From: Variovorax boronicumulans
GTDB lineage: Bacteria; Pseudomonadota; Gammaproteobacteria; Burkholderiales; Burkholderiaceae_C
Assembly: GCF_019352895.1 (NCBI RefSeq)
Contig: NZ_JAAAFX010000004.1
Coordinates: 1,385,276-1,449,275, forward strand
DNA length: 64,000 nt
Reading direction: 5' to 3'
Shown here piece after piece: positions 3,001 to 17,045 of the stretch (position 1 is its first letter; each line of letters begins with the position of its first letter). A program made the translations under genes and the position numbers. Below the pieces are notes generated by a model, which did not search any database, was not told where the DNA came from, and saw only the letters and a program-made list of their open reading frames with translations.

Positions 3001-6000
3001 GTGGACGGCGGCGTGCCCTGGGCCGCGCCGATGCCCAGCGTGACCGTGCCCAGCGGCGCGCGCACCACGCCCCCCTGCGCCACGTTGGCCGACAGCAGCT
3101 GCAGCGAGCCGAACACCGCATAGGGCAGCGCCGCTTCGGGCCCGCCGCTGTGTTCGATGCGCAGGCTGCGCGCCGGGTCGTAGCCGATCTCGAAGCTGCC
3201 CCAGTTGGAGAGTGCGCCGCGCTGGCCGGCGATGACCTGCGCGCGGGCGCCAGTGGCCGGGTACAGCTGGCTGGCCGCCAGCACCAGGTCGCCCACGGTG
3301 GTGAGCGAGGTGTTGAAGAGCACGCCGCGGCTGGAGGCCAGGAAGCGCAGGTCGCCCTCGCTGCGCAGCGTCACGAGGTCGAAGCCGGCCCGCTGGATCA
3401 GCGGATCGGCCGCACGCACCTGGCCGAAGGTGCCGAACTTCACCTCGTCGAGCACGTCGAGCAGCGAGGACTCCACCAGCAGCCGCGAATCCGCGGCCAC
3501 TTCCACCATGCCGAGGATGCCCGAAGGCTGGGGCAGCGCACGCGGCAGCAGGTTGAAGTCCTTCTGGCTGCGTGTGACCCCGGCCAGGCGCACGTGCGGC
3601 GCGGCCAGGCGCACGCTGGCGCCCTCGGCGGACCCTTCGACCAGGCTGATGCTGCCGGACGTGAGGCGCAGGCTCTGGCCCAGCGTCAGGTCGAGCCCGC
3701 CTTCGAGCGTGATCATGCCGCCCGACAGCAGGCTCAGGTTGTCGAAGCCACCGGCCTCGATGCGGTCGGCGCCGAGGCGCGCATGGCCGTACATCAGCGC
3801 CGCATCGCCCTGGCCGGGCCGCAGGCCGGCCGCCAGCGGCTCGGGCGCCTGCCGGTTCAGCAGCGCGATCTCGCGCGGCACCAGCACGCCGGCGTCGGGG
3901 CCGGCACTGTTCACGTAGTTGGGCGTGTCCAGCGCCAGGGCCAGCGTGCCGCCAGCGGCGCCCGCGCCACCCGCGGCCGCGCGCAGTTCGCCGTCGAGGT
4001 ACAGGCCGTTGAAGCTGCTCAGGTAGAGCAGGCCGCCGTCGGAGGCCACCACGGTGGCGCCCTGCTGCGGCAGGTCGAGCAGGGCCGAGGTGCCGGAGGC
4101 GTCCAGCCGCGCGCCGGAGCGCACGACGATGAAGTTGTCGATGCCGTTGGCCAGGGTGGCGTCGGCACGGTAGCGGCCACCGATCTGGATGCTGCCGCCG
4201 TTCAGCACCGTGCCATAGCGGTGCCCCAGCACATCGGTGGCGGTGGCGGCCAGCCCGGCCACGTCGAGCACGGCCCGCGAGCCGATCCAGACCGAGCGGT
4301 CGTGCGCCTTGACCGAAGCGATGTCGTCGTTGCCATAGCCCAGCGGCTGTACCTCGATGCGGCCGCCGGCGGCATGCAGTGCGCCCTCGATCGTGATCTG
4401 GCCATTGCCCGTGAGCGCGATGGCCTGACCCGGATCGACCGTGAGCTTCGCATCCGCACCCACAGCCAGCGTGGGCGCCAGGGCGCTGGCCTGGCGGCCG
4501 GCCGTCAGCGCGATGCTGGCGCCGGCGCGCTGCCCCAGGCGGTGCGCCGCCGCGTCTTCGGTGAACAGCGGCGGCTCCCACAGGCCGAGCGCCTGTGCCG
4601 GCTCGGCGCCGGTGGCCAGGTCGTAGGCGGCGCGGCGATCGAGCTGCAGCACCGGCATGCGCACGGCCACGTCGGCGCCCTCGGCCACCGCCACGCCGCC
4701 CAGGCCCACCACCTCGTAGCGCGAGAAACCCTGGCCGAAGGTGTTCGCCGCCAGGTGCATCAGCGGCGCCACGGACACCGGCTGCGGCAGCACCGTGCCC
4801 GCGCGCAACACGGTACCGGCGGCATAGGTGATCTCCTTGGGAGCGAGCGTGCCGGCCTTCATCACGCCGGCCGAGGGCGCAATGCCCATGCCGTCCGGGA
4901 AGGCATCGGCCGGCAGCACATAGCTCACCGGGAAGCCGTTCGCGTTGCTGATCGCCATGATCACGGTGCCGGCCGGCACACGCACCGGCTGGTTCCAGGC
5001 GTACATGTTGATCTGCTGCCCCCCCATCCGGACGATGGAGTAGGAGTTGCTGCCGGTGGGCACCGGCGCCAGCCAGTCCGCGGCCAGCGTGATCCAGCTG
5101 GCGGACTGGTTCAGGTCGATCAGCGGCGAGCCGCCGACCGCCTCGCCCGGCAGCGCGCGGGTTCGCACGAAATGGAAGTCGGCCGGCAGCACCGCGCCTT
5201 CGGCCACGGAGAACGCGCCCTGCGTGACCAGGTCGGACAGGGAGGCCTGGCCCGCAGCCAGCGTGCCGTCGCTGCCGGCCACCTGGCCGCCGATGACCAC
5301 GGCATCGCCGGTCTGCAGGTGCAGCGTGCCGCCGCCCTGCACGCCGTGGCCGCGCAGCTCGCCCTCCAGGCGCAGGTGGCCGGCCTTGCTGCCGCCCGCC
5401 GGCAGGCCATCGGCGATCAGCGTGATGCTGCCGCCCTTGCCGCCGCGCGTCTTGCCATCGGCCAGCAGTGCCGCGCCCGAGGACACGTCGAGCAGCGCGC
5501 CGGCGCCCACCGTCACGTCGCCGCTGCTGCGCAGCGCGATGCGGCCGCCGTGGACGTAGGGCAGGCCACCGGCATCGCTCGCGTCCTGGCGCAGGTTGGT
5601 CCACACGCCGCGCGCATCGAGCGTCACGCCCCCGGCGACGGTGGTGCGCTCGATGACCCCGGCCGGCGTCTGCGCGGCGACGGGGCTGTACAGCCAGCCC
5701 AGGCCGGCGCTGGTGATGCGCTCGACCAGGTTGCCCAGCGCGATGCTGCCGCCACGCGCCGTGAGGTCGGCATTCACCTGCACCTCGGTGGCGTGCAGCG
5801 CGATGCTGCCGCCCTGCGCCACGCTGACGGCCTCGTCCACCGTCAGGCTGCCGAGGGCGTAGGCATGCAGCGTGTCGAGCCGCTGCGCGCCGAGCCAGGC
5901 CGCATCCAGCACGATGCGGCCGGCGCTGGACGGACCGGCGTCGGCGTTGCCGATGACCACCTCGTTCACCACGGCGCCCGGGTTGTCGCGCAGGGTGCGC

Positions 6001-8333
6001 GTGTCCTTGTCGTAGACCGGCGTGTAGCGGCCCACGATCAGTTGCGCACCACGCGCCGCCGCCGTCTGCGCCTGCGCGTAACCGTCCAGGCCCGCATCGC
6101 GGGCGCGCGTCTGCTGCGGACCCTGGTAGACGCCGGTGTCCAGCTGCCCCTGCAACGTGGCCGCCTGCGTCGCCACGATCAGCCGGCCCGCATCCCGGCC
6201 CACCGTGTAGCCACTCTCCAGCCGACGCTCCGGTGCGATCAGCGGGCTGGCGAAGTTCTCGGTCACGCCCCAGCGCGCATGCACGGACTCGAAGCCCTGG
6301 TACACGCCGGTGTAGCGCAGGTCGCCCGGTGCACGGGAGGCGCTGTAAAGGCGGCCATCGGCGCCCTTGAGGAAGGTCTGTTTGACGTAGCCGGTCTGCA
6401 CGTCGAGCGAGCCGCCGGCCAGGTTGATCAGGCTGCCCTCGTGGGTGGTCAGCTCGCCGCCGGTGAACTGCACCGTGCCGCCCTGCGCCGCCCATTCGCC
6501 GATGCTGTGGCCGGTGATGCCCAGGTAGCCGCCCACTTCGAGCAGCCCGCCCGCGGTGTACCAGCGGTCGGTTTCGTAGCCGTTGGTGCCCGCCGGGACT
6601 TTGACGAGGGTGCGCCGGTCGATCCAGATGTTCTTGTTGTTCAGGCTCTTGTCGTCGCGGTTGACGGGCGCGTCGCGCTGCTCGTTGCCCTGCGCATTGA
6701 CGAGCACGTTGTTGGCTTCCATCGCCACGCGCACGCCCACCGCGCCGGACACGTCGATGGTGGCGCCGCCGGCCAGCGCGGCGCGTGCCGCGTTCACCAT
6801 CACCTGGCCGCCGGTCGCCAGCGTGAGCGAGTCGGCGCGGAAGTCGACCGCGCCCGCGCTGTCGATCAGCACCAGCGACTGGTCGCGCCGGTGCTGCACG
6901 CCGTCGCCGCTCTTGTCGGACTCCTTGATCAGCGCATCGCGCTGCGCATCCAGCGCGGTGGCGGCGGACTCGGACAGCAGCACGGCCGTGAGGCTGCCTT
7001 CGCCCAGCTGGACCCGGCCGTCGGTGTCGCCGCCCGCATTGTTCAGGTGCACCGTGCCGCGCACGGTCACCGAGGTGGTGGCCACCGCCACGCCCTGCTG
7101 GCGCACATCCTGTCCGGTGAGCGTGATGTCGCCGGTGGCGGCCTGGATCAGGCCGGTGTTGCGGACCAGGCCGGCGGCCGAGCCGTCCTGGCGCAGCGTG
7201 CTCACCACGTTGCCGCGCGTGGTCGCGTTCGGGTTGGCCTCGGTGCCCTGACCGCGGCGGATCACGAAGGCATCGCCCGCGGCCAACACGGCCTGCCCTG
7301 CGGCGGTGTGGATCTGGCCCGCGTTGTGCACCTCGCGCCCCGCCAGCAGCACATAGCCGCCGCCGTCGGTGACGCTGGTCGGCTGCGCCGTCTGCAGGCG
7401 CGCGCCGGCCTCGACCACCACGTCGCCCGTGGCCGCGCCATGGCTGAAGCTGCTGGCGGTGGTCGCGAGGTCGTTGGCCAGGCTGGGGATGAACTTCGTG
7501 CCCTGGGCCTCGCTGAACAGCCCCTTCTTGAACTGCGCATCGCTCATGCCGACGGCCGAGGCCACCAGGTTGCGCGTGTCGACCTGGCTCGAGCCGCTGA
7601 ACACGATGCCGTTGCGGTTGACCACCATCACCGTGCCGTCGGCCTGGATCCGGCCCTGGATCCGAGAAGGCCGCGCCTGCGGATCGTTGACCCGGTTGAG
7701 CACCGACCAGCTCGGCTGTTGCTCGAACTTCAGGGTGGTGTCGCGCCCGACGTTGAAGCTCTCCCAGTTGAGCACCGCCTGTGCGCCGGTCTGGGCGATC
7801 GTGACCTGCGTCTGGCCGCCGCTGCGGGTCTGCACCGGCGCCTGTGCGTGGGCCCAGCCGGCCGTGAGGCTGTTCGTGTCGACCTGGAGGCCGCCTTCGC
7901 CCAGCCCGTCGGGCACGCTCGAGGCGCCGGCCAACGCCGCCGCGCGCGCCGCGGCCTGGGCCGCCTGCTGCGCCGCAATGCTGCGTGCCGCGAGGTTCAG
8001 GTTGCCGATCGAACGCTGCAGTTGCGCCTGGGCCTGCTGCTGCTGCGCCAGCGGGTTGGTGAGCGTCGATGCCAACTGTCCGTTGGGCAGCCGCCCCGTG
8101 GCGGCGGCCGTGTCCTGCGCCAGGTTCTTCTGCGCCATCCAGGCGGCGCCGAGGGCGCGTTGCGCCTGCGCGGGGCCCGCCGCCCCCATCGCCACGCCGG
8201 CCGTGAGCAGGGCCGCCACGGCCCGCATCATCGGGTTGAGCCGCGTGCGCCGCAGCGAGCTTCGCGGGCCCGAAAGGAAGGCCGAGGAAGAGGATGCGCT
8301 CCTGTTGCGCGTGACCGCCGTGTTGCGTTGCAT
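1..8333 (-). CDS. Filamentous haemagglutinin-type two-partner-secretion exoprotein (3' end outside window)
   Basis: Reading from ATG at 8333 the frame stays open to the left edge, at least 2,777 codons. I translated both ends and several internal stretches and all read as sensible protein in this one frame. The N-terminus has a long basic leader and a signal peptide ending in AQA near residue 54. A TPS/haemagglutination-activity domain follows, with LNWESFNVG and NRNGI (residues 239-243, a variant of the classic NPNGI) leading into a VDTRNLVAS stretch. The rest is Gly/Ala/Thr/Val-rich sequence in short beta-helix-like repeats, including a YTGVYQGFE segment near residue 680. Proteins of this family are secreted through a TpsB/FhaC-type outer-membrane pore and act as adhesins or haemophores. 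No tpsB is visible here; it may lie beyond the left edge. The neighbouring sigma/anti-sigma/STN genes suggest regulated expression. The C-terminal domain cannot be seen. Confidence 0.9.
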   Translation of the reverse strand, partial: MQRNTAVTRNRSASSSSAFLSGPRSSLRRTRLNPMMRAVAALLTAGVAMGAAGPAQAQRALGAAWMAQKNLAQDTAAATGRLPNGQLASTLTNPLAQQQQAQAQLQRSIGNLNLAARSIAAQQAAQAAARAAALAGASSVPDGLGEGGLQVDTNSLTAGWAHAQAPVQTRSGGQTQVTIAQTGAQAVLNWESFNVGRDTTLKFEQQPSWSVLNRVNDPQARPSRIQGRIQADGTVMVVNRNGIVFSGSSQVDTRNLVASAVGMSDAQFKKGLFSEAQGTKFIPSLANDLATTASSFSHGAATGDVVVEAGARLQTAQPTSVTDGGGYVLLAGREVHNAGQIHTAAGQAVLAAGDAFVIRRGQGTEANPNATTRGNVVSTLRQDGSAAGLVRNTGLIQAATGDITLTGQDVRQQGVAVATTSVTVRGTVHLNNAGGDTDGRVQLGEGSLTAVLLSESAATALDAQRDALIKESDKSGDGVQHRRDQSLVLIDSAGAVDFRADSLTLATGGQVMVNAARAALAGGATIDVSGAVGVRVAMEANNVLVNAQGNEQRDAPVNRDDKSLNNKNIWIDRRTLVKVPAGTNGYETDRWYTAGGLLEVGGYLGITGHSIGEWAAQGGTVQFTGGELTTHEGSLINLAGGSLDVQTGYVKQTFLKGADGRLYSASRAPGDLRYTGVYQGFESVHARWGVTENFASPLIAPERRLESGYTVGRDAGRLIVATQAATLQGQLDTGVYQGPQQTRARDAGLDGYAQAQTAAARGAQLIVGRYTPVYDKDTRTLRDNPGAVVNEVVIGNADAGPSSAGRIVLDAAWLGAQRLDTLHAYALGSLTVDEAVSVAQGGSIALHATEVQVNADLTARGGSIALGNLVERITSAGLGWLYSPVAAQTPAGVIERTTVAGGVTLDARGVWTNLRQDASDAGGLPYVHGGRIALRSSGDVTVGAGALLDVSSGAALLADGKTRGGKGGSITLIADGLPAGGSKAGHLRLEGELRGHGVQGGGTLHLQTGDAVVIGGQVAGSDGTLAAGQASLSDLVTQGAFSVAEGAVLPADFHFVRTRALPGEAVGGSPLIDLNQSASWITLAADWLAPVPTGSNSYSIVRMGGQQINMYAWNQPVRVPAGTVIMAISNANGFPVSYVLPADAFPDGMGIAPSAGVMKAGTLAPKEITYAAGTVLRAGTVLPQPVSVAPLMHLAANTFGQGFSRYEVVGLGGVAVAEGADVAVRMPVLQLDRRAAYDLATGAEPAQALGLWEPPLFTEDAAAHRLGQRAGASIALTAGRQASALAPTLAVGADAKLTVDPGQAIALTGNGQITIEGALHAAGGRIEVQPLGYGNDDIASVKAHDRSVWIGSRAVLDVAGLAATATDVLGHRYGTVLNGGSIQIGGRYRADATLANGIDNFIVVRSGARLDASGTSALLDLPQQGATVVASDGGLLYLSSFNGLYLDGELRAAAGGAGAAGGTLALALDTPNYVNSAGPDAGVLVPREIALLNRQAPEPLAAGLRPGQGDAALMYGHARLGADRIEAGGFDNLSLLSGGMITLEGGLDLTLGQSLRLTSGSISLVEGSAEGASVRLAAPHVRLAGVTRSQKDFNLLPRALPQPSGILGMVEVAADSRLLVESSLLDVLDEVKFGTFGQVRAADPLIQRAGFDLVTLRSEGDLRFLASSRGVLFNTSLTTVGDLVLAASQLYPATGARAQVIAGQRGALSNWGSFEIGYDPARSLRIEHSGGPEAALPYAVFGSLQLLSANVAQGGVVRAPLGTVTLGIGAAQGTPPSTVQLLPGSVTSVSAAGLVMPYGGTVDGLTYNYAGLDVPYYGLGDLLGSVRLTARDIDVQAGATLDLRGGGALQGAGFLSGRGGSTDARLHPLLQVQANGRFVLPGLATNPVYAIVPGVQAAAAPVAAEKGAGDPGVGRQITIGEGVPGLPAGTYTLLPSSYALMPGAFRVELNGLAPSQAAFGGTHAMRNGSYSTAARLGVAHTGIVDALSTQAVLTPGGTLRSYAQYNETSYAQFGLDWALRDSVPRPQLERDARVLSLLPGAQLQIAPGTVQFAAAEGGRGGTVSLLAPQVEVLAGGAAPTTGYAGLSVQADLLNGIGASVIAIGGLPASTFTVLAGYGSTADAWRVGLGSSSGTTAEIVLRAGAVLSAPQVFLVTGRTDGGITLEQGAGIDTLRRGAAAWSAADGYVVAPGPASVLALSNGRLDVLPPTTTGTPGAGAGRIHIGTCAAGASCTGETRLYSEGTITAVTDQSFLLDDSVRYGARDLVLAVGAINVGTQAQLAAAHDGGILPAGLTLDQQVLDRLLQGDTRTGAPALENLVLSARDAVNFFGSVKLSTVDAATGRSALQNLVLGAPAIYGWGAAGDVAHIETDRLVWNGALSLPGTVVAGGAGSGSGRFVVDARQIEFGYGPRSQADTLNSHDRLVLGFDSVHLNASERITANHKGSLAVYRSQGDWDDAAQACHYSGGDLHLLTPLLTGHAGSVNTLKAGGAITAKAPAGSASPLPDNATLADALGATLSLDAGRGLTLDTAVLLPSGKLGLSAGDDVRLDDGAQLDLAGRKIDFFDVSSYSWGGEVKLDSRSGNVTQAAASRIDLSAQQNRAGRLTAIAVEGTVGLAGAIDGRTSGRYDAGGTQVPFAAGTVEVHGLRIDDFAGLNARLSDGGVFGGRSFRLGQGDLAIGDELKAREINVSVDNGHLTVNGRIDASGEQAGTIRLAANHGLTVAGTGVLDARASVLRRDSYGQAIEAPNRAVIEIDAGDGRLLLAPGATMRLDVAGA

Positions 8334-8674
8334 GGGTGACCTGTTCGTGTTCAATGGCTGGACCGCGCCACGACGCCCACCGGCCGTGCCGGCGCGGGGT
8401 TGTCGTGACCTACGGGAGCTATGACAGAACAGGGGAAACGCGACTGCAGCATGTCACGAAAACTTCACAAAGCAGGTGGGCGTGCCGGCCACGCGGCCGG
8501 GCGTCTCGATTCTTCCGATCGGCATGACCCGGCCATGACACGGCGACGCCGATTGCACCCGCGCGGCACACGGTCGCAGTGCTGACACACAAGCCGTCCA
8601 TGCTGCACGCGGACGCGATCCGTCTGCCCTTCCTCCTTTGCGAACCGACGACGCCGCGAGCGCCTGGCCCCCGA
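8334..8674. other. Divergent intergenic region between haemagglutinin and EAL-GGDEF genes
   Basis: These 341 bases separate two divergent starts and hold no convincing gene. They contain the motif CGCGA-N5-GCATGTCAC at 8439-8457 (on the minus strand GTGACATGC-N5-TCGCG), which recurs upstream of the STN-sigma-FecR operon. The minus strand also has one isolated CTGTCAT (8421-8427), identical to a PhoB half-site, but no second half at the expected spacing. No strong sigma-70 promoter is evident for the haemagglutinin gene, which fits dependence on an alternative sigma factor but does not prove it. Confidence 0.6.
8439..8457 (-). promoter_or_regulatory. Shared motif GTGACATGC-N5-TCGCG upstream of haemagglutinin
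   Basis: On the minus strand, GTGACATGC is followed after five bases by TCGCG. The motif ends about 105 bases before the haemagglutinin start codon. The same 9+5 bases with the same spacing and orientation occur at 12883-12901 upstream of the STN-sigma-FecR operon. It could be a binding site for a common regulator or part of an ECF promoter; the spacing does not fit a standard -35/-10 pair. The functional assignment is inference. Confidence 0.4.
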
Positions 8675-10522
8675 ATGAATCCGTCCGAAAAAACGCTGGC
8701 ACGGCTGTACCGCGACGAGGCGCTGTACCCGGTGTTCCAGCCGATCGTGGACCTGCGCAAGGGCAGCATCTTCGGCCACGAGGCGCTGATCCGCGGCCCG
8801 CTGGGCACGCCCTTCCACACGCCGGCCGCGCTGCTGGCACTGGCCGCGGAGGAAGACTGCCTGACCGATTTCGAACTCGCCTGCGTCGACGTCATCCTGC
8901 GGCACTGGGGCGGACTCACCGCGCCGGGCCAGCTGTTCCTCAACATGAGTTCCGACGCGCTGTCGGCCGCCATGGACGGCCCCGCGCCGAGCCGCTTCGA
9001 GCGCACGCTGGCCCTGCACGGCATCGCGCCACGCACCGTCACCGTCGAGATCACCGAGGAACGCGCCGCCAGCGACATGGGTGCGTTGCGACTGGCCGTC
9101 AAGGCCCTGCACAGCACCGGCGCGCGCGTGGCGCTGGACGACTTCGGCGAGGGCCAGTCGAACCTTCGGCTGTGGAGCGAGCTCCGGCCGGACTTCGTGA
9201 AGATCGACAAGTTCTTCACCCACGGCATTGCGAGCTCGCCGCAGAACCTCGAGCTGGTGCGCACCATCGTCGGCTTCGGCCACACGCTGGGTACGACTCT
9301 GGTCGCCGAGGGCGTGGAAGACACCAAGGACCTGCGGGTGCTGCGCGACCTGGGCATCGACCACGGACAGGGCTACCTGCTGGGCCGCCCGACCCGCGTG
9401 CTGCACGAGGCCGCGCCCTCGCCGATCACCGAGGCCATCCGCGACAGCCGCATCGCCGTGATGCCGCATGCGGCGCAGCAGGCGCAGCCCGGCGTGCTGC
9501 GCAGCCTGGCGGTGATCCAGGCGCCGACGCTGGGCCCGGCCACGCCCATCGACGAGGTCTCGACGCTGTTCCAGGCCCATCCCGAACTGCATGCGCTGGC
9601 AGTGCTCGACGCGGGCCGGCCCGTGGCTTTGATCAACCGGCAGGCGTTCATGAACGACTACGCGCGGCTCTACTTCCGCGAGGTGCATGGGCGCCGGCCC
9701 TGCATCGGCTACGCCAACACCAGCCCGCGCGTGGTCGAGCTCGAGGACAACGTCGAGCAGCTGGTGGGCATCCTGATGTCGGAAGACCAGCGCTACCTCA
9801 ACGACGGCTTCATCGTCACCGAGGACAGGCGCTACCTGGGCCTGGGCACGGGCGAACAGCTGGTGCGCGCCGTGACCGAGGCACGCATCGAGGCCGCGCG
9901 CCATGCGAACCCGCTGACCTTCCTGCCCGGCAACATCCCAATCAGCATTCACATCGAACGCCTGCTGGCCAGCCATGCGGGCTTCGCTGCCTGCTATGCA
10001 GACCTGAACAACTTCAAGGTCTTCAACGACCACTACGGCTACTGGCGCGGCGACGAGATGATCCGCATGCTCGCGCGGCTGGCCGTGAAGCATGCCGACG
10101 CGCACCGCGATTTCGTGGGCCACATCGGCGGCGACGACTTCCTGGTGCTGTTCCAGAGCGAGGACTGGCAGGCCCGCTGCGCGCGCATGATCGAGGACTT
10201 CGACCTCGAGGCCCTCGGGCTCTACGACGATGCCGCGCGCGACGCGGGCGGCATCGAGGGCAAGGACCGGCGCGGCACGACGCACTTCTTCCCCTTCACC
10301 ACGCTGTCGATCGGCGCGGTGCGCATCGCGCCCGGCCGCTTCGCCCATGCCGAGGACGTGGCGGCCGAAGCGGCCATCGCCAAGCACGAGGCCAAGCACG
10401 CCAACACCGGCCTCACGGTGCGCGAGCCCGGCGCCATCGCCCCGTCCAGGCCCGGCCGCGCGCCCTATGCGCTGCCCAGCAGCACGATGCCGCCCGGCAG
10501 CGTCGTGACGTCGAGCCGGTAG
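8675..10522 (+). CDS. EAL-CBS-GGDEF cyclic-di-GMP phosphodiesterase/diguanylate cyclase
   Basis: A cytosolic c-di-GMP turnover enzyme of 615 residues from ATG 8675; ATG 8600 and GTG 8579 are in-frame alternatives, and none has a good ribosome site. The N-terminal EAL domain (about residues 15-245) keeps the catalytic set: EALIRG, the Asn of LNMSS, Glu of VEITEE, LDDFG, VKIDK, VAEG and the Gln of HGQGY, so phosphodiesterase activity is expected. A CBS-like pair (about 285-405), typical of GGDEF-EAL fusions and probably ligand-binding, precedes a C-terminal GGDEF domain with ADLNNFKVFND and the signature GGDDF. Whether GGDDF is cyclase-active is uncertain. It lies between the giant adhesin and its candidate regulators, so a role in adhesion control is plausible. 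Its last 58 bases overlap the 3' end of the convergent fecR-like gene. Confidence 0.9.
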   Translation: MNPSEKTLARLYRDEALYPVFQPIVDLRKGSIFGHEALIRGPLGTPFHTPAALLALAAEEDCLTDFELACVDVILRHWGGLTAPGQLFLNMSSDALSAAMDGPAPSRFERTLALHGIAPRTVTVEITEERAASDMGALRLAVKALHSTGARVALDDFGEGQSNLRLWSELRPDFVKIDKFFTHGIASSPQNLELVRTIVGFGHTLGTTLVAEGVEDTKDLRVLRDLGIDHGQGYLLGRPTRVLHEAAPSPITEAIRDSRIAVMPHAAQQAQPGVLRSLAVIQAPTLGPATPIDEVSTLFQAHPELHALAVLDAGRPVALINRQAFMNDYARLYFREVHGRRPCIGYANTSPRVVELEDNVEQLVGILMSEDQRYLNDGFIVTEDRRYLGLGTGEQLVRAVTEARIEAARHANPLTFLPGNIPISIHIERLLASHAGFAACYADLNNFKVFNDHYGYWRGDEMIRMLARLAVKHADAHRDFVGHIGGDDFLVLFQSEDWQARCARMIEDFDLEALGLYDDAARDAGGIEGKDRRGTTHFFPFTTLSIGAVRIAPGRFAHAEDVAAEAAIAKHEAKHANTGLTVREPGAIAPSRPGRAPYALPSSTMPPGSVVTSSR

Positions 10523-11451
10523 ACCTCGCGCACCAGCGCGATCACGTCGTCGAGCCGGTCGATGGAGAAGCTGGCCTGCACACGCTTGCGTCCGATCTCG
10601 GTGCTGGTCAGGATCAGCTTGCCCGGCCGGTAGCGGTTGACTTCGGCCACCACCTCGGCCAGCGGCGTCTGGTCGAACACCAGCTGGCGCCGCCGCCAGG
10701 CGCTGACGGCCGCCGCATCGGCGGGCCGCGCGACGCCGGGCCGCGCCCTGGCGTAGAGCAGTTGCCGGTCGACATCCACCGCGGTGCTGGCCGCCTCGCC
10801 GCGGCGCACGTCGACGCGGCCCGCGAGGCAGGTCACGCAGACCTCGCCGTCGATGAAGCGCACGTTGAAGCGCGCGCGCTGCGCCGTGATCAGGCCATCG
10901 CCGGCGCGCACCTGCACCGCGGGCGCGGCGCCGTCCAGGTCGGTACGGATCTCGGCCTCGCCCTCGAGCAACTCCAGCCGCGCCACGCCGCCCTCGGCGG
11001 CACGCAGGTCCATGCGCGTGCGGGTGTTGAGCTGCACCACGATGCCCTCTGGCGTGACCCACTCGCGCTGCTCGCCGGTGCCGGTGCGCAGGTCGGCCGC
11101 CAGGTCGCCCAGCGCGGGCCACAGGCCCAACGGCGGGCGCACCACCGCCCAGGCGGCCGTGCCCGCCAGGGCGGCGCCCAGGAAGGCGCGCCGCCCGAAG
11201 CGGCCGGCATCGCGCTGCGCAGCCCGCGCCACCTCGGCGCGCTGCACGTGCTGCGCCGCCGGCCGCAGGTCCTGCCAGACCGCGCGCGCCTGCACGAAGG
11301 CCGACGCATGGTCGCGGCTGCGCTCGCACCAGCGCCTGAAGGCCAGTGCATCGTCGGCGTCGGCCGCGTGCGAGGCCAGCCGCACCACCCATTGCCGGGC
11401 CTGGCGCCGGATGGCCTGCTGTTCGGCGCTGTCGTTCACTTCTTCACTCAT
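10465..11451 (-). CDS. FecR-family anti-sigma factor (VreR/FecR-like)
   Basis: This 328-residue protein has the FecR layout: an N-terminal cytoplasmic anti-sigma region (residues 1-85, with the DALAFRRWCERS-type DUF4880 motif), one membrane segment (about 86-105, after a twin-Arg GRRAFLG stretch), and a periplasmic FecR domain with LNTRTRMDL and DVRRGE, ending in an STN-like tail (QTPLAEVVAEVNRY...). Such proteins hold an ECF sigma factor inactive until an STN domain in the periplasm signals. The start at 11451 overlaps the sigma gene by 8 bases, so the two are translationally coupled. It ends tail-to-tail inside the c-di-GMP gene with 58 bases of overlap. Confidence 0.9.
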   Translation of the reverse strand: MSEEVNDSAEQQAIRRQARQWVVRLASHAADADDALAFRRWCERSRDHASAFVQARAVWQDLRPAAQHVQRAEVARAAQRDAGRFGRRAFLGAALAGTAAWAVVRPPLGLWPALGDLAADLRTGTGEQREWVTPEGIVVQLNTRTRMDLRAAEGGVARLELLEGEAEIRTDLDGAAPAVQVRAGDGLITAQRARFNVRFIDGEVCVTCLAGRVDVRRGEAASTAVDVDRQLLYARARPGVARPADAAAVSAWRRRQLVFDQTPLAEVVAEVNRYRPGKLILTSTEIGRKRVQASFSIDRLDDVIALVREVYRLDVTTLPGGIVLLGSA

Positions 11452-12001
11452 GAGACTTAGACGGTTTTCCCGCGCCCGGACCGAAGCGCTGGATGAAATC
11501 GCGGCCCAGCCGTTCGCAGCAATGCTCGAGGCCGGCGCGCAATTCCTTCTCGATGGTGCGCTCCGACACGCCGAAGCGCCGCGCGATCTCGCGGTGCGGC
11601 ATCTCGTCGATGCGCGCCGCCACCACGATGGCGCGACGCCGCCGCGGCAGCTCGGCCAGCGCGCGCTCGAGCGCCTCGATCTCGCCGCGCGCCTCGGCGG
11701 TGCGGGCCGGGTCGGCCATCTCGTCGGCCATCTCGTAGAGCGCCTCGACGTCGGGCACGCTCAGCAGCCGCGCGCTGCTCTTGCGCTGGTCTTCGGCGAT
11801 GTTGAGCGCGATGCGGAACAGGTAGGCCGAGGGGTAGCGGATCGCGCCCAGCACGCTCATCGATTCCATGCGCAGGTAGGTCTCGTGCAGCGCGTCGTTG
11901 GCCAGGTCTTCAGAGCCCAGGCGCTGGTGCAGGTGGCGCCGGAACTGGTCGTAGCGCGACAGGAACAGCGCGCGCAGCGCAGCCTTGATCGATTCGGGCA
12001 T
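11444..12001 (-). CDS. ECF-family RNA polymerase sigma factor (FecI/VreI-like)
   Basis: A 185-residue sigma-70 factor of the extracytoplasmic-function type. Region 2 reads YDQFRRHLHQRLGSEDLANDALHETYLRM and region 4 has a helix-turn-helix around IARRFGVSERTIEKEL, preceded by LPRRRRAI. The ATG at 12001 is chosen because the sequence upstream in this frame is arginine-rich read-through of the STN gene. It begins 5 bases after the STN gene stops and overlaps fecR by 8 bases, giving an STN-sigma-FecR operon. The likely job is to transcribe surface-signalling targets, with the neighbouring haemagglutinin as the obvious candidate; that target is inferred. Confidence 0.92.
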   Translation of the reverse strand: MPESIKAALRALFLSRYDQFRRHLHQRLGSEDLANDALHETYLRMESMSVLGAIRYPSAYLFRIALNIAEDQRKSSARLLSVPDVEALYEMADEMADPARTAEARGEIEALERALAELPRRRRAIVVAARIDEMPHREIARRFGVSERTIEKELRAGLEHCCERLGRDFIQRFGPGAGKPSKSHE

Positions 12002-12006
12002 GCGGC

Positions 12007-12744
12007 TCAGCTCCCGTCCGCCAGCGCAGCGCGGCAGACCGCGACCGGGTCGGCGCGCGGGCTCAGCAGCACCGTGACCGGCTGCGCGAGCCCGGGCGGC
12101 GGCACGCGGCCGATGGCCAGCCCGCGCAGCTGCGCGAGCAGGACGGTGTCGCGCGCGGCCTCGCCGCTCGGCTCGAGCAGGCTCGCGCGTCGGATGCGTC
12201 CCTCGGGCCCGGTCCAGAGCTGCAGCGCAGCGCGGTAGCGGCCGAAGGTGCCGGGCTGCGCCGCGCACAGGGCCCGCGTGATGGCGGACTGGAGCGCGCC
12301 CGCGAAGTCGGCGGCGGCGGAAGGCGCGACGCCCCCCAGGCCCGGCGCCGTCGGTGCGGTAGGCGCCTCGGGCATCGGCACCTCCGCCGTCGCCGGCTCG
12401 GGCACCAGCGTGAACGCATTGCGCCCGCTGTAGCGCGCATGCAGGCCGGTGCCGGCCAGCAGCAGCCGCAGCGCCTCCTGCGCCGGGAACGCGCCGTGCA
12501 CCGCCTGTGCGGTGCGGCCCTGCGCCAGCGTGCTGTCGACCAGCACCGAGTGGCCGGTGAGCCCGCCGAAATCCGCGAGCGCCTTCTGCAGCGGCTGGGA
12601 CGGCAGGTCGAAGTGCAGGCGCGGACCGGCCTCAGCCATGTCGCGCGGCTCCGTCGTGGCCGCGGCCGTGCCGCCCCAGGCGAGCATCCACACCAGGCAC
12701 CAGGCCTGTGCCCATCGGCAGCCTGGAGCGAGAGAAAGCACCAT
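12007..12744 (-). CDS. Periplasmic STN-domain signalling protein with TonB-C-like tail (VreA-like)
   Basis: The 245-residue product has a signal peptide (WCLVWMLAWGGTAAA) and an STN domain at about residues 40-115 (LHFDLPSQPLQKALADFGGLTG... and a final FTLVP). A Pro/Ala linker leads to a C-terminal part (about 165-228) with a TonB-C-like pattern: LQLWTGPEGRIRRASLLEPSG, then an LRGLAIGRVPPPG loop and a last beta-strand. There is no room for an outer-membrane barrel, unlike ordinary FecA-type receptors. Pseudomonas VreA likewise lacks the barrel and heads a vreA-vreI-vreR operon, the order seen here. The TonB-C assignment rests on visual pattern and needs a profile search. It starts at ATG 12744 without an obvious Shine-Dalgarno sequence. 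Confidence 0.8.
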   Translation of the reverse strand: MVLSLAPGCRWAQAWCLVWMLAWGGTAAATTEPRDMAEAGPRLHFDLPSQPLQKALADFGGLTGHSVLVDSTLAQGRTAQAVHGAFPAQEALRLLLAGTGLHARYSGRNAFTLVPEPATAEVPMPEAPTAPTAPGLGGVAPSAAADFAGALQSAITRALCAAQPGTFGRYRAALQLWTGPEGRIRRASLLEPSGEAARDTVLLAQLRGLAIGRVPPPGLAQPVTVLLSPRADPVAVCRAALADGS

Positions 12745-12882
12745 GGGTTGGAATCATCAGGACGGACACGGGAAGAACGCGCGGGCGACGCTGCGGCAGG
12801 GCCTCGGCCCTGCACGTTGGAAGTACGCGGCATGCTAGGCGGCGCGCATGACCGATCCGTGACGCCGCACCGCCTGGCGCCG

Positions 12883-12952: not shown

Positions 12953-13330
12953 ATGCCCATCGCCCGCCGCCCGCTGCTGTTCCCGCCTGCCCTCGCCCTT
13001 GCCCTCGCCCTGTGCGCGGCGATGGCGCCGGCGCTGGCGGACGAAGCCCAGGACGGCCCGGCCCGCTGCGTCGAGGTGGAAGTCGACGGCGCCCGCGCGC
13101 CCGCGTCCTTCGCCTGCCTCAGCGAGCGACTGCGCCCGAGCGCCGCACCCTCGCAGCCCCGCGATGCGACCCTGGGCTCGGAAGCCATCGTGCAGCGGCC
13201 CGGCAACCAGTTGGGCGTGTTCAACCGCGCCGCCACCAGCCACCGCATGGGCAACACCTTCGGCACTTCGGTGTATCCGCAGCGGCCGCCGCCGGTGGTG
13301 CCGGTGCTGCCCTTCGGGCCGCGGCCTTGA
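12953..13330 (+). CDS. Small secreted protein, function unknown
   Basis: A 125-residue protein with a clear signal peptide: basic MPIARRP, a Leu/Ala core, and cleavage after APALA near residue 25. The mature part has two cysteines (ARCVEVEV and FACLSER), which could form a disulphide in the periplasm, and a Pro-rich end with RMGNTFGTSV and RPPPVVPVLPFGP. ATG 12953 is preferred over an upstream frame extension because GGAG sits five bases before it. I do not recognise the family. Its position, divergent from the STN-sigma-FecR operon and beside the shared motif, suggests it belongs to the surface-signalling island. Confidence 0.7.
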   Translation: MPIARRPLLFPPALALALALCAAMAPALADEAQDGPARCVEVEVDGARAPASFACLSERLRPSAAPSQPRDATLGSEAIVQRPGNQLGVFNRAATSHRMGNTFGTSVYPQRPPPVVPVLPFGPRP

Positions 13331-13360: not shown

Positions 13361-14140
13361 TCACGCCGCCGACAGCCCGCCATCCACCGCGATGGCCTGC
13401 CCCGAGATGTGCCTGCCGGCGTCGGAGCACAGCACCACGGAAAGCCCCTTGAGGTCTTCCTCGGTCCCCACGCGGCCCAGCGGGGTCAGCACCGCGATCT
13501 CCGCGCTGGCGCGCGCCAGCATGTCGACCGTCAAACGCGAGGGGAAGAAGCCCGGACAGATCGCGTTGACGTTGATGCCGAAGCGGCCCCATTCGACCGC
13601 CAGTGCGCGCGTGAAGTTCACCAGCCCCCCCTTGCTCGCGTTGTAGGCCAGGGTCTGCATCTGCAGTGCCGGCGGATTGCCGCGCAGGCCGGCCACCGAG
13701 GCGATGTTGAGGATCTTCCCGCAGCGCCGGGGGATCATCCAGCGCCGCCCGACCTCTTGCGTCAGCACGAACACCGCATTGAGGTTGAGGTCCATCAATC
13801 GCGTCCAGGCGGCCCGGCCATGGCTTTCGGCGGGTTCGGCCCAGCTCGCGCCAGCGTTGTTGACCAGGATATCGATCGGCCCTTCGACGGCCGCGAGCGA
13901 TTCGGCGATGCCATCGATGTGCAGCAGGTCGTGCACCCAGAGCCGGACGTCGGTGGCGCCGGCCGCGCGCAGGGCCTGCGCCGCCTCGGCAAGTTCGTCG
14001 GCATCCTGTGGCCTGGCGTGCAGCACCACTGCGGCGCCTTGCTCGCACAGGCCCTGGGCGATCTGCAGGCCCAACCCACGCGACGCACCGGTCACCAGCG
14101 CCCGGCACCCCTGTAGCGACAACAGCGTCTGGAGGCTCAT
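13361..14140 (-). CDS. SDR-family oxidoreductase, probable 3-hydroxyacyl-CoA dehydrogenase
   Basis: This is a 259-residue classical short-chain dehydrogenase with the cofactor motif TGASRGLG near residue 17, NNAG at about 92-95, a catalytic Ser in NIASVAG and the YNASK active-site pair. The C-terminal GQAIAVDGG is typical of FabG-like proteins. It is the last gene of the acyl-CoA operon; its start overlaps the ligase stop by four bases (ATGA). In that setting it most likely oxidises a 3-hydroxyacyl-CoA, but a reductase or alcohol dehydrogenase role cannot be excluded from sequence alone. Confidence 0.85.
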   Translation of the reverse strand: MSLQTLLSLQGCRALVTGASRGLGLQIAQGLCEQGAAVVLHARPQDADELAEAAQALRAAGATDVRLWVHDLLHIDGIAESLAAVEGPIDILVNNAGASWAEPAESHGRAAWTRLMDLNLNAVFVLTQEVGRRWMIPRRCGKILNIASVAGLRGNPPALQMQTLAYNASKGGLVNFTRALAVEWGRFGINVNAICPGFFPSRLTVDMLARASAEIAVLTPLGRVGTEEDLKGLSVVLCSDAGRHISGQAIAVDGGLSAA

Positions 14141-15801
14141 GGCGCAGCCCCGCGTTCCCCGTCGAGCAGGGCCTTTTTCGACAGCTTGCCGACGGCGGTG
14201 CGCGGCAGCTCGGCGCGGAACTCGAGCGCCTGCACCATTTCATGGCGGCCGACGCGGCCCTTCAGGAAGGTCTTGAGTTCGTCGAGGCTGAAGCCCGCTG
14301 CCTGTGGCCGCAACTGCACGAAGGCCTTGGGCACCTGGCCCTTGAGCGCATCGGGAATGCCGACCACCAGCGCGTCCTGCACCGCCGGATGCGCATAGAG
14401 CGCCTCTTCGATGGCACGCGGGTAGACGTTGTATCCACCGCACAGCATCATGTCCTTGAGCCGGTCGACGATATGGACATAACCGTCCTCGTCGATGCGC
14501 GCGATGTCGCCGGTCCGCAGGTAGCCGTCGGCCGTGAAGACACCCTGCAGATGCGGCGCCTGCCCCAGGTAGTGGCGCATCACGTTCGGCCCGCGGATGC
14601 ACAGTTCGCCGACTGAACCGGCGGCGGCGGGTCGATCGAAATCATCCAGGTCCACGAGCCGGAGATCGACTCCGGGAATCGGCAGGCCGCAGGAACCGAT
14701 CTTGATCGGGCCCGTGGGTGGCGCGTAGGTGCCCGCCGACGCGGTCTCGGTCATGCCCCAGCCTTCGGTGAGACGCAGGCCAGTCAGTGACTCGAAGGCA
14801 CGATGGGTCTCGCCCGGCAGCGGTGCGCCGCCCGACAGGCAGAAGCGCAGCGACGACAGATCGGGCCGTGCGCCGGCGCACGCGTCGATCAGCAAGGCGT
14901 ACATCGTGGGCACGCCCGAGAACATCGTGACCCGCCGCTCGCCGACACAGGCGATCACCGCGGCGGCATCGAATCTCGACTGCAGCAGGATGCTGGCCCC
15001 AAGCCGCAGGCCGAACAGAAGATTGGCGGTGAACGCATAGATGTGGAACAGCGGCAGGCACAGCAGCAGGGTCTCGCGTCCATCTTCCAGGATCGCCGGC
15101 ACGCCGTGCGTGATATGCCAGTACTGCTCACAAGCGGCCGTGAGGTTGCCATGCGTCAGCACGGCCGCCTTGGGCACACCGGTGGTGCCGCCGGTGTATT
15201 GCAGCAAGGCCGGCATGTCGGCACCGATGCGTGGCAATGGCGCATGCGGCGCGTCGGTCGCCAGCAGGTGGTCGGACTGCAGCCGGCTCAGGCGCGATGG
15301 CGTGCCGACCGGCTCGTCTTCGGCACCGACGTCGACCAGGGTCTGCAATGAAGTGCCCGCCAGCACATCGGCCATGGTCGCCCAAAGCGCGCGCTCGGCC
15401 ACCAGCACGGATGCACCGCAATCGGCCAGCTTGCCCGCCAGCGTGGCCGGTGCGTCCAGCGGCGACAGCAGCACCAGTGCCGCACCCGCGCGCAGCACGG
15501 CCAGTGCGTAGAGCACCTGCTCCGGCCGGTTGCCCATCCACAGCGCCACGACAGCACCGGGTTGGGCCAGCGATTGCGCCACGAGGGTGCGCGCCAGCCG
15601 CGTCACCGCATCGTCGAGCTGCCGGTAGCTCCAGCGCTGCGTGCCGCACTCGAGCGCCAGTCGGTCCGGCCATCGATGGGCGGAAGCGCGCAGGAGTTCG
15701 GGCACCATCGACGGCGCGATCGTCTGCGCCCACTGCACGCCGGCGGGATAGTGGGGCAGCCAGGGCCGCTCGATCGTCGCCTCTGCTTGCGGCATGCTCA
15801 C
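14137..15801 (-). CDS. AMP-binding acyl-CoA ligase (FadD-like)
   Basis: The 554-residue protein has the ANL-superfamily signatures: the P-loop YTGGTTGVPKA, GWGMTE at the A5 motif, TGDIARIDEDGYVHIVDR at the hinge and the catalytic Lys region near the end (LPRTAVGKLSKKAL). It activates a carboxylic acid to an acyl-CoA using ATP. Translation probably begins at GTG 15801, overlapping the stop of the binding-protein gene by four bases; ATG 15795 is two codons in. A second ligase lies just beyond that binding-protein gene, so the operon may handle two acids or two steps. Chain length cannot be read from sequence. Confidence 0.9.
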   Translation of the reverse strand: MSMPQAEATIERPWLPHYPAGVQWAQTIAPSMVPELLRASAHRWPDRLALECGTQRWSYRQLDDAVTRLARTLVAQSLAQPGAVVALWMGNRPEQVLYALAVLRAGAALVLLSPLDAPATLAGKLADCGASVLVAERALWATMADVLAGTSLQTLVDVGAEDEPVGTPSRLSRLQSDHLLATDAPHAPLPRIGADMPALLQYTGGTTGVPKAAVLTHGNLTAACEQYWHITHGVPAILEDGRETLLLCLPLFHIYAFTANLLFGLRLGASILLQSRFDAAAVIACVGERRVTMFSGVPTMYALLIDACAGARPDLSSLRFCLSGGAPLPGETHRAFESLTGLRLTEGWGMTETASAGTYAPPTGPIKIGSCGLPIPGVDLRLVDLDDFDRPAAAGSVGELCIRGPNVMRHYLGQAPHLQGVFTADGYLRTGDIARIDEDGYVHIVDRLKDMMLCGGYNVYPRAIEEALYAHPAVQDALVVGIPDALKGQVPKAFVQLRPQAAGFSLDELKTFLKGRVGRHEMVQALEFRAELPRTAVGKLSKKALLDGERGAAP

Positions 15802-17045
15802 ACCGGCCGCCGCATGTTGCAGGTGGTGGGCATCTCGGTCTGTCTGGCCGGCACGGCGAGATCGGTCTTGGTGCCGATGCCGGAGCCCTCGAGGTCGTAC
15901 TTGACAGTCTTGCCGTCGGCCTTCACGAAGCTCGAGATGTAGAGCGGCATCAGGATCTGATGGTCGTCCCTGCGCATCGTCACTTCACCCGTGTCGCTCT
16001 GGAAGCGCATGCCCTCGAGCGCCAGCCCAACCTTGACGGGGTCGGTGGTACCGGCCGTGTTCATGGCCTTCACCAGCATGTCGAGCAGGGTGTTGACGCG
16101 CAGGTAATAGAAGTCGACGGCGGCCTTCTGCTTGAAGGCAGTGGCGTAGTTGCGCGCCTTGTCGCCGGCGATGTTGGGATGCCACTCGCTGATCATGCGG
16201 ACGCGGTCGATGCCCGACTCGCCGATGGCGGTGGGCGCCCCCAGACCGCCCGCATAGTAAGTGTAGAACTTGGTCTTCAGTCCATAGTCCTTGGCCGCCC
16301 GCACCAGCAGCGCCAGGTCGTTGCCATAGTTGCCGGTGATCACCGTATCGGCACCCGACGCCGCGATGCGGGCCACATAGGGCGCGAAATCCTTGACCTG
16401 TCCGAGCGGGTGCAGGTCATCGCCAACGATCTGCACATCGGGCCGCTTCTTCGCGATCATCTCTTTGGCGGCGCGCGAAACCTGCTTTCCGAACGAATAG
16501 TCCTGGCCGATGATGAAGACCTTCTTCACGCTCGTGTCGGCGGCCAGATGCTGTGTGATCGCATCCATCTGCATGTCGCTGTGCGGATAGAAGCGGAAGT
16601 GCCAGAAGCTGCAGCCGTTGTTGGTCTGCTCCGGGTCCGCGCCCGCGTAGTTCAGGACCAGGAAGGAACGCGCCGGATCGCGTGCCGCGACCTTGCCGGC
16701 GGTGTCGACCAGCGCCGTCACGACGTTGGAACTCGACGAGGCCACGAAGTGGATGCCCTGGCCGATGGCCGCTTGCGCCGCCGACATGCTCTCCTGCGGC
16801 GAGCCCTTGCCGTCGAAAGGCACGATCTCGATCTTCTGGCCGCCCAGCACGCCGCCGCGCGCGTTCACGTCCGCCGCCGCCAGCTGGAAGTGCTTGAGTC
16901 CGAACTGCCCGAAGTTGGCGAAGGGACCGGACAGCGGATCGATCACCGCGATCCGGATCTGCGCCTGCAGTGCGCCCGAAACGAGGAGGCCGGCGGCCGC
17001 CGCGGCGACAGTGCCCCAGCGCTGGATGCTTCGACGATGGCTCAT
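15798..17045 (-). CDS. Orphan Leu/Ile/Val-type ABC substrate-binding protein
   Basis: A 415-residue periplasmic binding protein of the Peripla_BP_6 (LivJ/K) family. The signal peptide has a basic HRRSIQRW start and ends in LQAQ; the mature part begins IRIAVIDPLSGPFANFG, the typical first strand and ligand loop. ATG 17045 is preferred over further-upstream starts because AGGAG lies ten bases before it. No permease or ATPase partner is in the operon; instead it sits between two acyl-CoA ligase genes and overlaps the downstream one by four bases. It probably captures the carboxylic acid or aromatic acid that the ligases activate, sharing a transporter encoded elsewhere. Confidence 0.88.
   Translation of the reverse strand: MSHRRSIQRWGTVAAAAAGLLVSGALQAQIRIAVIDPLSGPFANFGQFGLKHFQLAAADVNARGGVLGGQKIEIVPFDGKGSPQESMSAAQAAIGQGIHFVASSSSNVVTALVDTAGKVAARDPARSFLVLNYAGADPEQTNNGCSFWHFRFYPHSDMQMDAITQHLAADTSVKKVFIIGQDYSFGKQVSRAAKEMIAKKRPDVQIVGDDLHPLGQVKDFAPYVARIAASGADTVITGNYGNDLALLVRAAKDYGLKTKFYTYYAGGLGAPTAIGESGIDRVRMISEWHPNIAGDKARNYATAFKQKAAVDFYYLRVNTLLDMLVKAMNTAGTTDPVKVGLALEGMRFQSDTGEVTMRRDDHQILMPLYISSFVKADGKTVKYDLEGSGIGTKTDLAVPARQTEMPTTCNMRRPV

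Follow-up and report, generated by a model that had tools for sequence, protein, structure and literature searches.

The PUMA3 system of Pseudomonas aeruginosa comprises genes for VreA, VreI and VreR in that order, and this cassette is linked to a two-partner secretion (TPS) exoprotein (PMC2729926, PMC4971064, PMC7035377). The promoters of pdtA and phdA require both sigma-VreI and PhoB, with a pho box situated upstream of the −35 element (PMC4971064). The genes listed for strain PAO1 are pdtB, exbB2, exbD2, tonB4, PA0696 (porin), PA0697, PA0698 (YbjN) and PA0699 (isomerase), and the inducing signal is described as still unknown (PMC7035377). PUMA3 clusters have also been reported from Burkholderia vietnamiensis, R. 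palustris and Janthinobacterium, the latter two having four repeats, of which three have tpsA behind them and the fourth has tpsB with exbBD (PMC2729926). Here we describe a corresponding locus of Variovorax boronicumulans (assembly GCF_019352895.1), located in a stretch of 64,000 nucleotides (positions 1,385,276 to 1,449,275 of contig NZ_JAAAFX010000004.1, forward strand), hereafter the window.

It is likely that this locus is a PUMA3-type (VreA-VreI-VreR-like) cassette, with a sigma factor predicted from sequence to switch on the adjoining gene for a giant TPS exoprotein. In the mechanism we propose, the STN domain of a periplasmic VreA-like protein would bind the periplasmic part of FecR, and an envelope signal would free the sigma factor from FecR. 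The freed sigma factor would then read a composite promoter, and PhoB would probably take part, as it does in P. aeruginosa. The exoprotein, TpsA, would be exported by a TpsB encoded elsewhere in the genome, and ExbBD-TonB proteins may energise or assist TpsB.

The cassette and its conservation

The original prediction, made from the letters of the window, had proposed an operon for an STN-only protein, an extracytoplasmic function (ECF) sigma factor and a FecR anti-sigma factor, with a haemagglutinin-type exoprotein about 2 kb away and a small secreted protein nearby. All of these genes are present (Table 1). The STN stop codon and the sigma start are 5 nt apart and the sigma and fecR genes overlap by 8 nt, and we therefore read the three as one operon. 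The TPS-domain gene, tpsA, begins 2.1 kb past fecR, with a gene for an EAL-CBS-GGDEF protein in between, and its ATG at 8333 lines up with the ATG of orthologous cassettes in an alignment. The 3′ end of the EAL gene overlaps that of fecR tail to tail by 58 bp. The gene for the small predicted secreted protein (SSP) is divergent from the STN gene, on the side away from tpsA.

A confident structure model gives the STN protein the bilobal build of a VreA-like protein. Its STN part resembles the signalling domains of FpvA and PupB and its C-terminal part resembles TolA domain III, a TolA-like domain standing in place of a plug or barrel. Among its relatives is a protein of a Pseudomonas sp. (P0218) with 43% identity over 78% of the query.

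The cassettes compared here derive from 74 matches within the genus, minus two TonB-dependent receptors and two fragments (G125:C201, G179:C287) and plus one cassette from another genus (G105), giving 71, of which 70 are congeneric. The order STN-sigma-FecR-tpsA is found in 67 of these 71, a recurrence far beyond chance. This order, together with the VreA-like build, bears out the proposed tie between a PUMA3/VreAIR-type cassette and a TPS exoprotein, as well as the expectation that relatives would keep the layout and the haemagglutinin together. Between fecR and the start of the tpsA profile match lie 159 to 647 bp in 64 cassettes, 1,151 bp in one and 2.2 kb in the two that have the EAL gene between. 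Four cassettes have no tpsA after fecR, and two of them (L047, L077) stop at contig edges.

Among 101 congeneric genomes, the STN cassette, SSP and a tpsB of the type described below (C8-type) each occur in 24, and these are the same 24 genomes. Among 399 sampled genomes of the order, SSP was found in five and an STN protein with both domains in the same five; 29 others with an STN-protein match have one domain only. Three of the five lie in two other families, and in those three SSP and the cassette share their contig with a tpsB-exbB-exbD-tonB cluster. In G499, no tpsA match was seen after the cassette. These searches scored the best-ranked candidates per genome, and the absences are not absolute.

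Table 1. Features of the cassette region, in window positions
Feature	Position	Strand	Basis
VreA-like periplasmic signalling protein: predicted signal peptide, STN, TolA/TonB-C-like C-terminal domain, no beta-barrel	12007-12744	-	Pfam STN 39.8 bits
ECF sigma factor, VreI-like	11444-12001	-	Sigma70_r4_2 57.8 bits; sigma70-ECF
FecR-type anti-sigma factor, VreR-like	10465-11451	-	FecR 52.7 bits, DUF4880 34.1 bits
EAL-CBS-GGDEF protein, predicted phosphodiesterase	8675-10522; alternative start GTG 8579	+	EAL 169.3 bits, GGDEF 43.5 bits
tpsA, giant TPS exoprotein, 5′ part	3-8333, on to C13:1380064 beyond the window	-	TPS domain 68.7 bits
Composite promoter element of tpsA: pho-box-like repeat, predicted -35 and -10	8410-8467	-	13/13 orthologous tpsA
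SSP, small predicted secreted protein	12953-13330	+	two conserved cysteines; RPSNQLGLFNRAATxHRMGNTFGTSVYPQRPP segment strongly conserved
Candidate promoter of STN operon, GTCA-N7-GTCA repeat (pho-box-like)	12830-12865	-	inferred from alignment of the divergent region, 10 cassettes

The present genome and that of Variovorax sp. UMC13 (G175) belong to sister species of the same genus. Between them the exoprotein (window 3-8231 versus L027) has 68% identity and a ratio of non-synonymous to synonymous substitution rates (dN/dS) of 0.65 over the compared part; the sigma factor has 99% identity and a dN/dS of 0.06, the exoprotein diverging much faster. Seven cassettes, forming one group, contain an extra open reading frame (ORF) of about 110 to 120 residues between fecR and tpsA (L071:7373-7729, L058, L068, L072, L075, L079 and L080). 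These ORFs match the FecR profile weakly (36 to 43 bits) and appear by eye to comprise only its cytoplasmic N-terminal part, and might possibly encode a soluble anti-sigma factor.

Promoters of the exoprotein and exporter genes

Alignment of the upstream regions of the 13 orthologous tpsA genes revealed one conserved block, approximately TGAAG(A/T)TTTCGTGACATG(G/C)TGCAGTCGC, followed by a spacer and then CTGTCATAGC. The block is kept in the window beside the EAL gene, with the CTGTCATAGC element at 8418-8427, and its 40-nt core (8418-8457) is the sole site in the genome at up to three mismatches (spacer 14). Scanned with a composite matrix, the 116 fetched loci (2.1 Mb in total, with some overlap) gave 31 rows above 18 bits; a single block-wise shuffle of these loci gave none. 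Identical sequences are given once in this listing, the rows of L049 and L054 represent one site, and the site of L123 (G165) was confirmed separately.

Composite sites precede all 13 orthologous tpsA genes and stand before tpsB in eight of nine upstream regions (G000, G175, G145, G206, G135, G165, G376 and, weakly, G356), G376 belonging to another family. In six loci (L012, L049, L052, L055, L061, L087) a site lies before an operon of trypsin-like, TonB_2 and HtrA-like genes, and in L057 it accompanies a TonB_2 gene alone. The operon possibly serves exoprotein processing or anti-sigma cleavage; in L012 the three genes (13890-16473), with the composite promoter before them, lie ahead of a cassette. 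Three more sites (L064, L091, and L119 at 21.2 bits) have no assigned gene or lie 1.3 kb before an STN gene, and no composite site was found in the 15 loci that contain the EAL gene without the cassette.

The sites before tpsB carry CGTCTA, a sequence typical of ECF −10 elements. In cassettes that do not belong to the orthologous group, tpsA has another predicted promoter (approximately GAAAAAnTTTGCG, 20 nt, CGTCTWAG). A de novo search for a 48-nt motif in 67 tpsA upstream regions settled on the translation-start sequence and was replaced by a two-block search. The resulting ECF-like motif, which was fitted to these regions, exceeds the 99th percentile of shuffles in 50 of the 67. None of the 11 group-1 regions rose above the 95th percentile in this search (window, 6.8 bits versus 6.9), and the promoter assignment in the window therefore draws on the orthologue alignment and the composite matrix. 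Collectively, these sequences suggest private promoters for the exoproteins and a shared promoter for the exporter.

The succession of repeat, −35 and −10 elements in the composite block is the same as in the pdtA and phdA promoters of P. aeruginosa. Upstream of the STN operon, a GTCA-N7-GTCA repeat was picked in the window after looking and lies within 12848-12865. In a pho-box scan with an E. coli consensus, five of ten SSP-STN regions reached the 99th percentile of shuffles and all ten the 95th, the window being at the 95th. Applied to the tpsA upstream regions of these 10 loci, the same scan gave best scores of 11.0 in nine and 11.5 in one, to be read against 95th and 99th percentiles of 11.0 and 11.5 in shuffled SSP-STN regions, with the best match often off the conserved repeat. 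By analogy with P. aeruginosa, we would guess that phosphate may control the cassette or tpsA.

Six cassettes and one exporter cluster

The genome encodes six STN-only proteins of the VreA-like kind, and behind each STN gene lie a sigma gene and fecR. In five of these cassettes the next gene is tpsA, separated from fecR in the window by the EAL gene; in the sixth (L015, on contig C8) other genes come first. Contig C8 also contains tpsB, exbB (with DUF2341 and a lectin-like domain), exbD and genes for a TonB-like protein, a Porin_5 protein, a 212-residue protein, PpiC and YbjN. The TonB-like protein has no Pfam match and was identified from its place and from its match, at 41 bits, to the STN-protein profile. 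By family and place, the cluster matches that of PUMA3 in PAO1 in its TpsB, ExbB, ExbD, TonB-like, porin, YbjN and PpiC components. The C8-type tpsB occurs once per genome at an E value of 1e-40, and this genome has three further ShlB-type genes. On C8 (L021) the tpsA stop (6106) and the tpsB start (5806) are 300 bp apart with no phdA between them, and we take phdA to be an accessory rather than a core feature of PUMA3.

The 34-kb contig C8 begins and ends within a tpsA gene (L015:1-453 and L021:6106-17970). Compared with other TpsA proteins, one terminal piece covers residues 1-152 and the other starts at about residue 267; it is possible that the contig is a circular plasmid. Other genes on C8 encode a chromate transporter and an AbiEii-type toxin, the latter with a likely partner gene. 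A further ECF sigma gene, confirmed by Pfam, lies just after tpsA on contig C3 of this genome (L022, 2141-2725), and such a gene is present in the same position in L078, L081-L083, L086, L089-L091, L094 and L095. In G135, tpsB (L125:11121-12593) shows many in-frame stops in our reading, despite the presence of the cassette and SSP.

The small secreted protein

Relatives of SSP number 158 when searched with the single sequence and 560 when searched with an alignment. Within the best 120 of each, no Pfam domain was found, and those with names are hypothetical or uncharacterised proteins. Their genera include Cupriavidus, Azoarcus, Herminiimonas, Polaromonas and Janthinobacterium, with a homologue in Janthinobacterium sp. 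Marseille. An alignment of 51 sequences contains twenty invariant columns, two of which are cysteines; modelled alone, SSP has no confident fold (mean predicted local distance difference test score, pLDDT, 61). The SSP gene is divergent from the STN gene in 10 of the 13 orthologous cassettes, and in G376, G145, G165, G206 and G135 it is divergent from tpsB.

The genomes that encode this unannotated family are thus those that encode the two-domain signalling protein, all 24 in the genus and all five in the order sample. SSP is a better candidate than the EAL gene for an unrecognised member of the system, and its co-occurrence makes it a direct lead on the PUMA3 signal. A more specific idea, which we regard as rather unlikely, is that a two-partner exporter assisted by TonB has SSP as an overlooked obligate part. 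SSP and the TolA-like domain of the VreA-type protein would jointly report the state of this shared exporter to FecR, and each of several private adhesin genes would be expressed only when the single exporter is able to accept its product, amounting to a secretion checkpoint for surface adhesins.

The EAL-CBS-GGDEF gene

The EAL gene is part of the cassette only in this genome and in Variovorax sp. UMC13, that is, in two of the 71 cassettes and two of the 13 orthologous ones. The 11 other orthologous cassettes lack it and have fecR-tpsA spacings of 208 to 299 bp. Orthologues are present in 24 of the 101 congeneric genomes, a set that differs from that of the cassette, and ten genomes have both genes. 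Of the 15 loci obtained from the 22 other genomes that carry the EAL gene, 14 were compared, L040 (4.8 kb) being left out; the seven genomes from which no locus was fetched (G178, G189, G191, G192, G193, G199, G218) have no cassette. One conserved, unrelated neighbourhood surrounds the gene in 11 of the 14 loci, including those of the eight other genomes with both genes. There it is flanked on one side by a GntR-type regulator with hydantoin or purine genes and on the other by a purine-type permease, as named from their translations.

The protein has 615 residues here and in UMC13 versus 580 to 594 in the others, its longer tail overlapping fecR antisense. All EAL motifs checked, with residues that we take to be catalytic, are present. 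The CBS match, at 19.7 bits, is under the cut-off of 24. In all 18 sequences (the UMC13 gene being represented twice) the GGDEF motif takes the form GGDDF, and this state therefore predates the move of the gene. A dN/dS of 0.15 relative to UMC13 indicates purifying selection. The protein is probably a working phosphodiesterase, and the gene most likely represents a later local insertion between fecR and tpsA that left the composite promoter intact. By its sequence and distribution the gene looks like an intact newcomer, and nothing indicates that it is part of the conserved circuit. The suggestion that the locus is a version of PUMA3 coupled to cyclic di-GMP finds no support, as a conserved feature, in the occurrence of the gene, which outside these two cassettes mostly lies in the one unrelated neighbourhood, and on the grounds of synteny such coupling was rejected as a conserved trait.

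Alternative explanations

The EAL protein could nonetheless be a functional part of the circuit in the two species that have its gene in the cassette, sharing the divergent promoter region and the same sigma factor with tpsA and lowering cyclic di-GMP so as to couple adhesin expression or release to the sessile state. The intact EAL motifs, the purifying selection in both species and the divergent arrangement of the two genes, with the composite promoter in the 341 bp between them, agree with this idea, and another TPS system, cdrAB, is under cyclic di-GMP control (PMC5422565). The restriction of the gene to two of 71 cassettes and two of 13 orthologues, its unrelated location in the eight other genomes with both genes and a GGDDF motif older than the move make it distinctly unlikely. 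The composite matrix, moreover, finds no plus-strand site in the window, and hence none facing the EAL gene, other promoter types not having been searched there. An ordinary iron or siderophore system of the FecARI type with its receptor elsewhere would account for the remote similarities to FecI, to FecR and to the signalling domain of FecA. We consider it extremely unlikely, as the STN protein has a TolA-like domain instead of plug and barrel, no receptor is present among the seven scanned window proteins around the operon, and the composite promoter precedes secretion and protease genes.

It is also conceivable that tpsA is under the control of PhoB or a housekeeping sigma factor alone, that the cassette sigma factor controls other genes, and that their adjacency reflects co-inheritance. 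Co-inheritance would by itself produce synteny, and pho-box-like repeats lie before both tpsA and the STN operon. Given that tpsA is downstream in 67 of 71 cassettes, that the ECF-like two-block promoter stands out in 50 of 67 regions, though fitted to them, and that sigma-VreI of P. aeruginosa acts on pdtA and not on its own operon (PMC4971064), this explanation appears very unlikely. Several observations weigh against our preferred reading of a PUMA3-type cassette that activates tpsA. The composite matrix was built from twelve sequences drawn from the matches of a preceding search themselves; the site before tpsB of G356 is weak (20.9 bits), and the matrix scan detected none upstream of tpsB in G499. 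Because the predicted tpsA promoter of non-orthologous cassettes differs, any assignment of a sigma factor to the tpsB promoter is tentative, and because of the three other ShlB-type genes the window tpsA can be paired with the C8 tpsB only by inference. The YbjN and PpiC genes are in reverse order on C8, and the match of the cluster to that of PAO1 is at the level of families. L015 and L076 (G175) are real exceptions, with no tpsA directly after fecR. In G105, whose cassette is the only one outside the genus in the family sample, the fetched stretches contain no SSP or C8-type tpsB, the whole genome not having been searched for them. The likeness of the STN protein to VreA is one of architecture and gene set, and P. 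aeruginosa VreA is not named among the 95 relatives listed for it. Finally, deletion of vreA in P. aeruginosa under phosphate starvation left promoters at wild-type level (PMC4971064), which makes the role of the STN protein less certain.

Comparison with known systems

The essentials of this finding, among them the repeated copies with tpsA, were already described in 2009 (PMC2729926). A betaproteobacterial version of PUMA3, as originally suggested, is already in print, the cyclic di-GMP coupling being the part that found no support. In the open-licence literature searched, we did not find SSP described as a constant companion, a promoter shared by tpsA, tpsB and protease operons in Burkholderiales, or an EAL insertion in the cassette. 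The present analysis lays out how one genome arranges one exporter gene set and several sigma-linked exoprotein cassettes, and supplies a predicted regulon promoter that is testable by simple reporters.

Cell-surface signalling systems of the FecARI/FpvA type use the same STN-FecR-ECF sigma logic, with a signalling domain that, unlike the one here, is part of the receptor barrel. CdrAB of P. aeruginosa is controlled through FleQ and is not known to have a sigma/FecR/STN cassette. It resembles the present locus in encoding a TPS protein, which in that case is under cyclic di-GMP control (PMC5422565). The PUMA3 homologues of Janthinobacterium, R. palustris and B. vietnamiensis have cassettes linked with tpsA, tpsB and exbBD as here, with up to four repeats versus six in this genome, and the available text of their description names no EAL enzyme or recognisable SSP (PMC2729926). 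With PUMA3 of P. aeruginosa (PMC2729926, PMC4971064, PMC7035377) the Variovorax system has in common the gene order, a bilobal receptor-like protein, a linked TPS exoprotein, the tpsB-exbB-exbD-tonB-porin-YbjN-PpiC set (by family) and the repeat/−35/−10 promoter. The hxc secretion genes are not among the neighbours seen here, the genome not having been searched for them. The Variovorax system differs from that of P. aeruginosa in several respects: it has six cassettes where P. aeruginosa has one, its tpsB is located elsewhere, phdA is missing between the tpsA and tpsB genes of C8, SSP is added and, in the window, an EAL-CBS-GGDEF gene is inserted.

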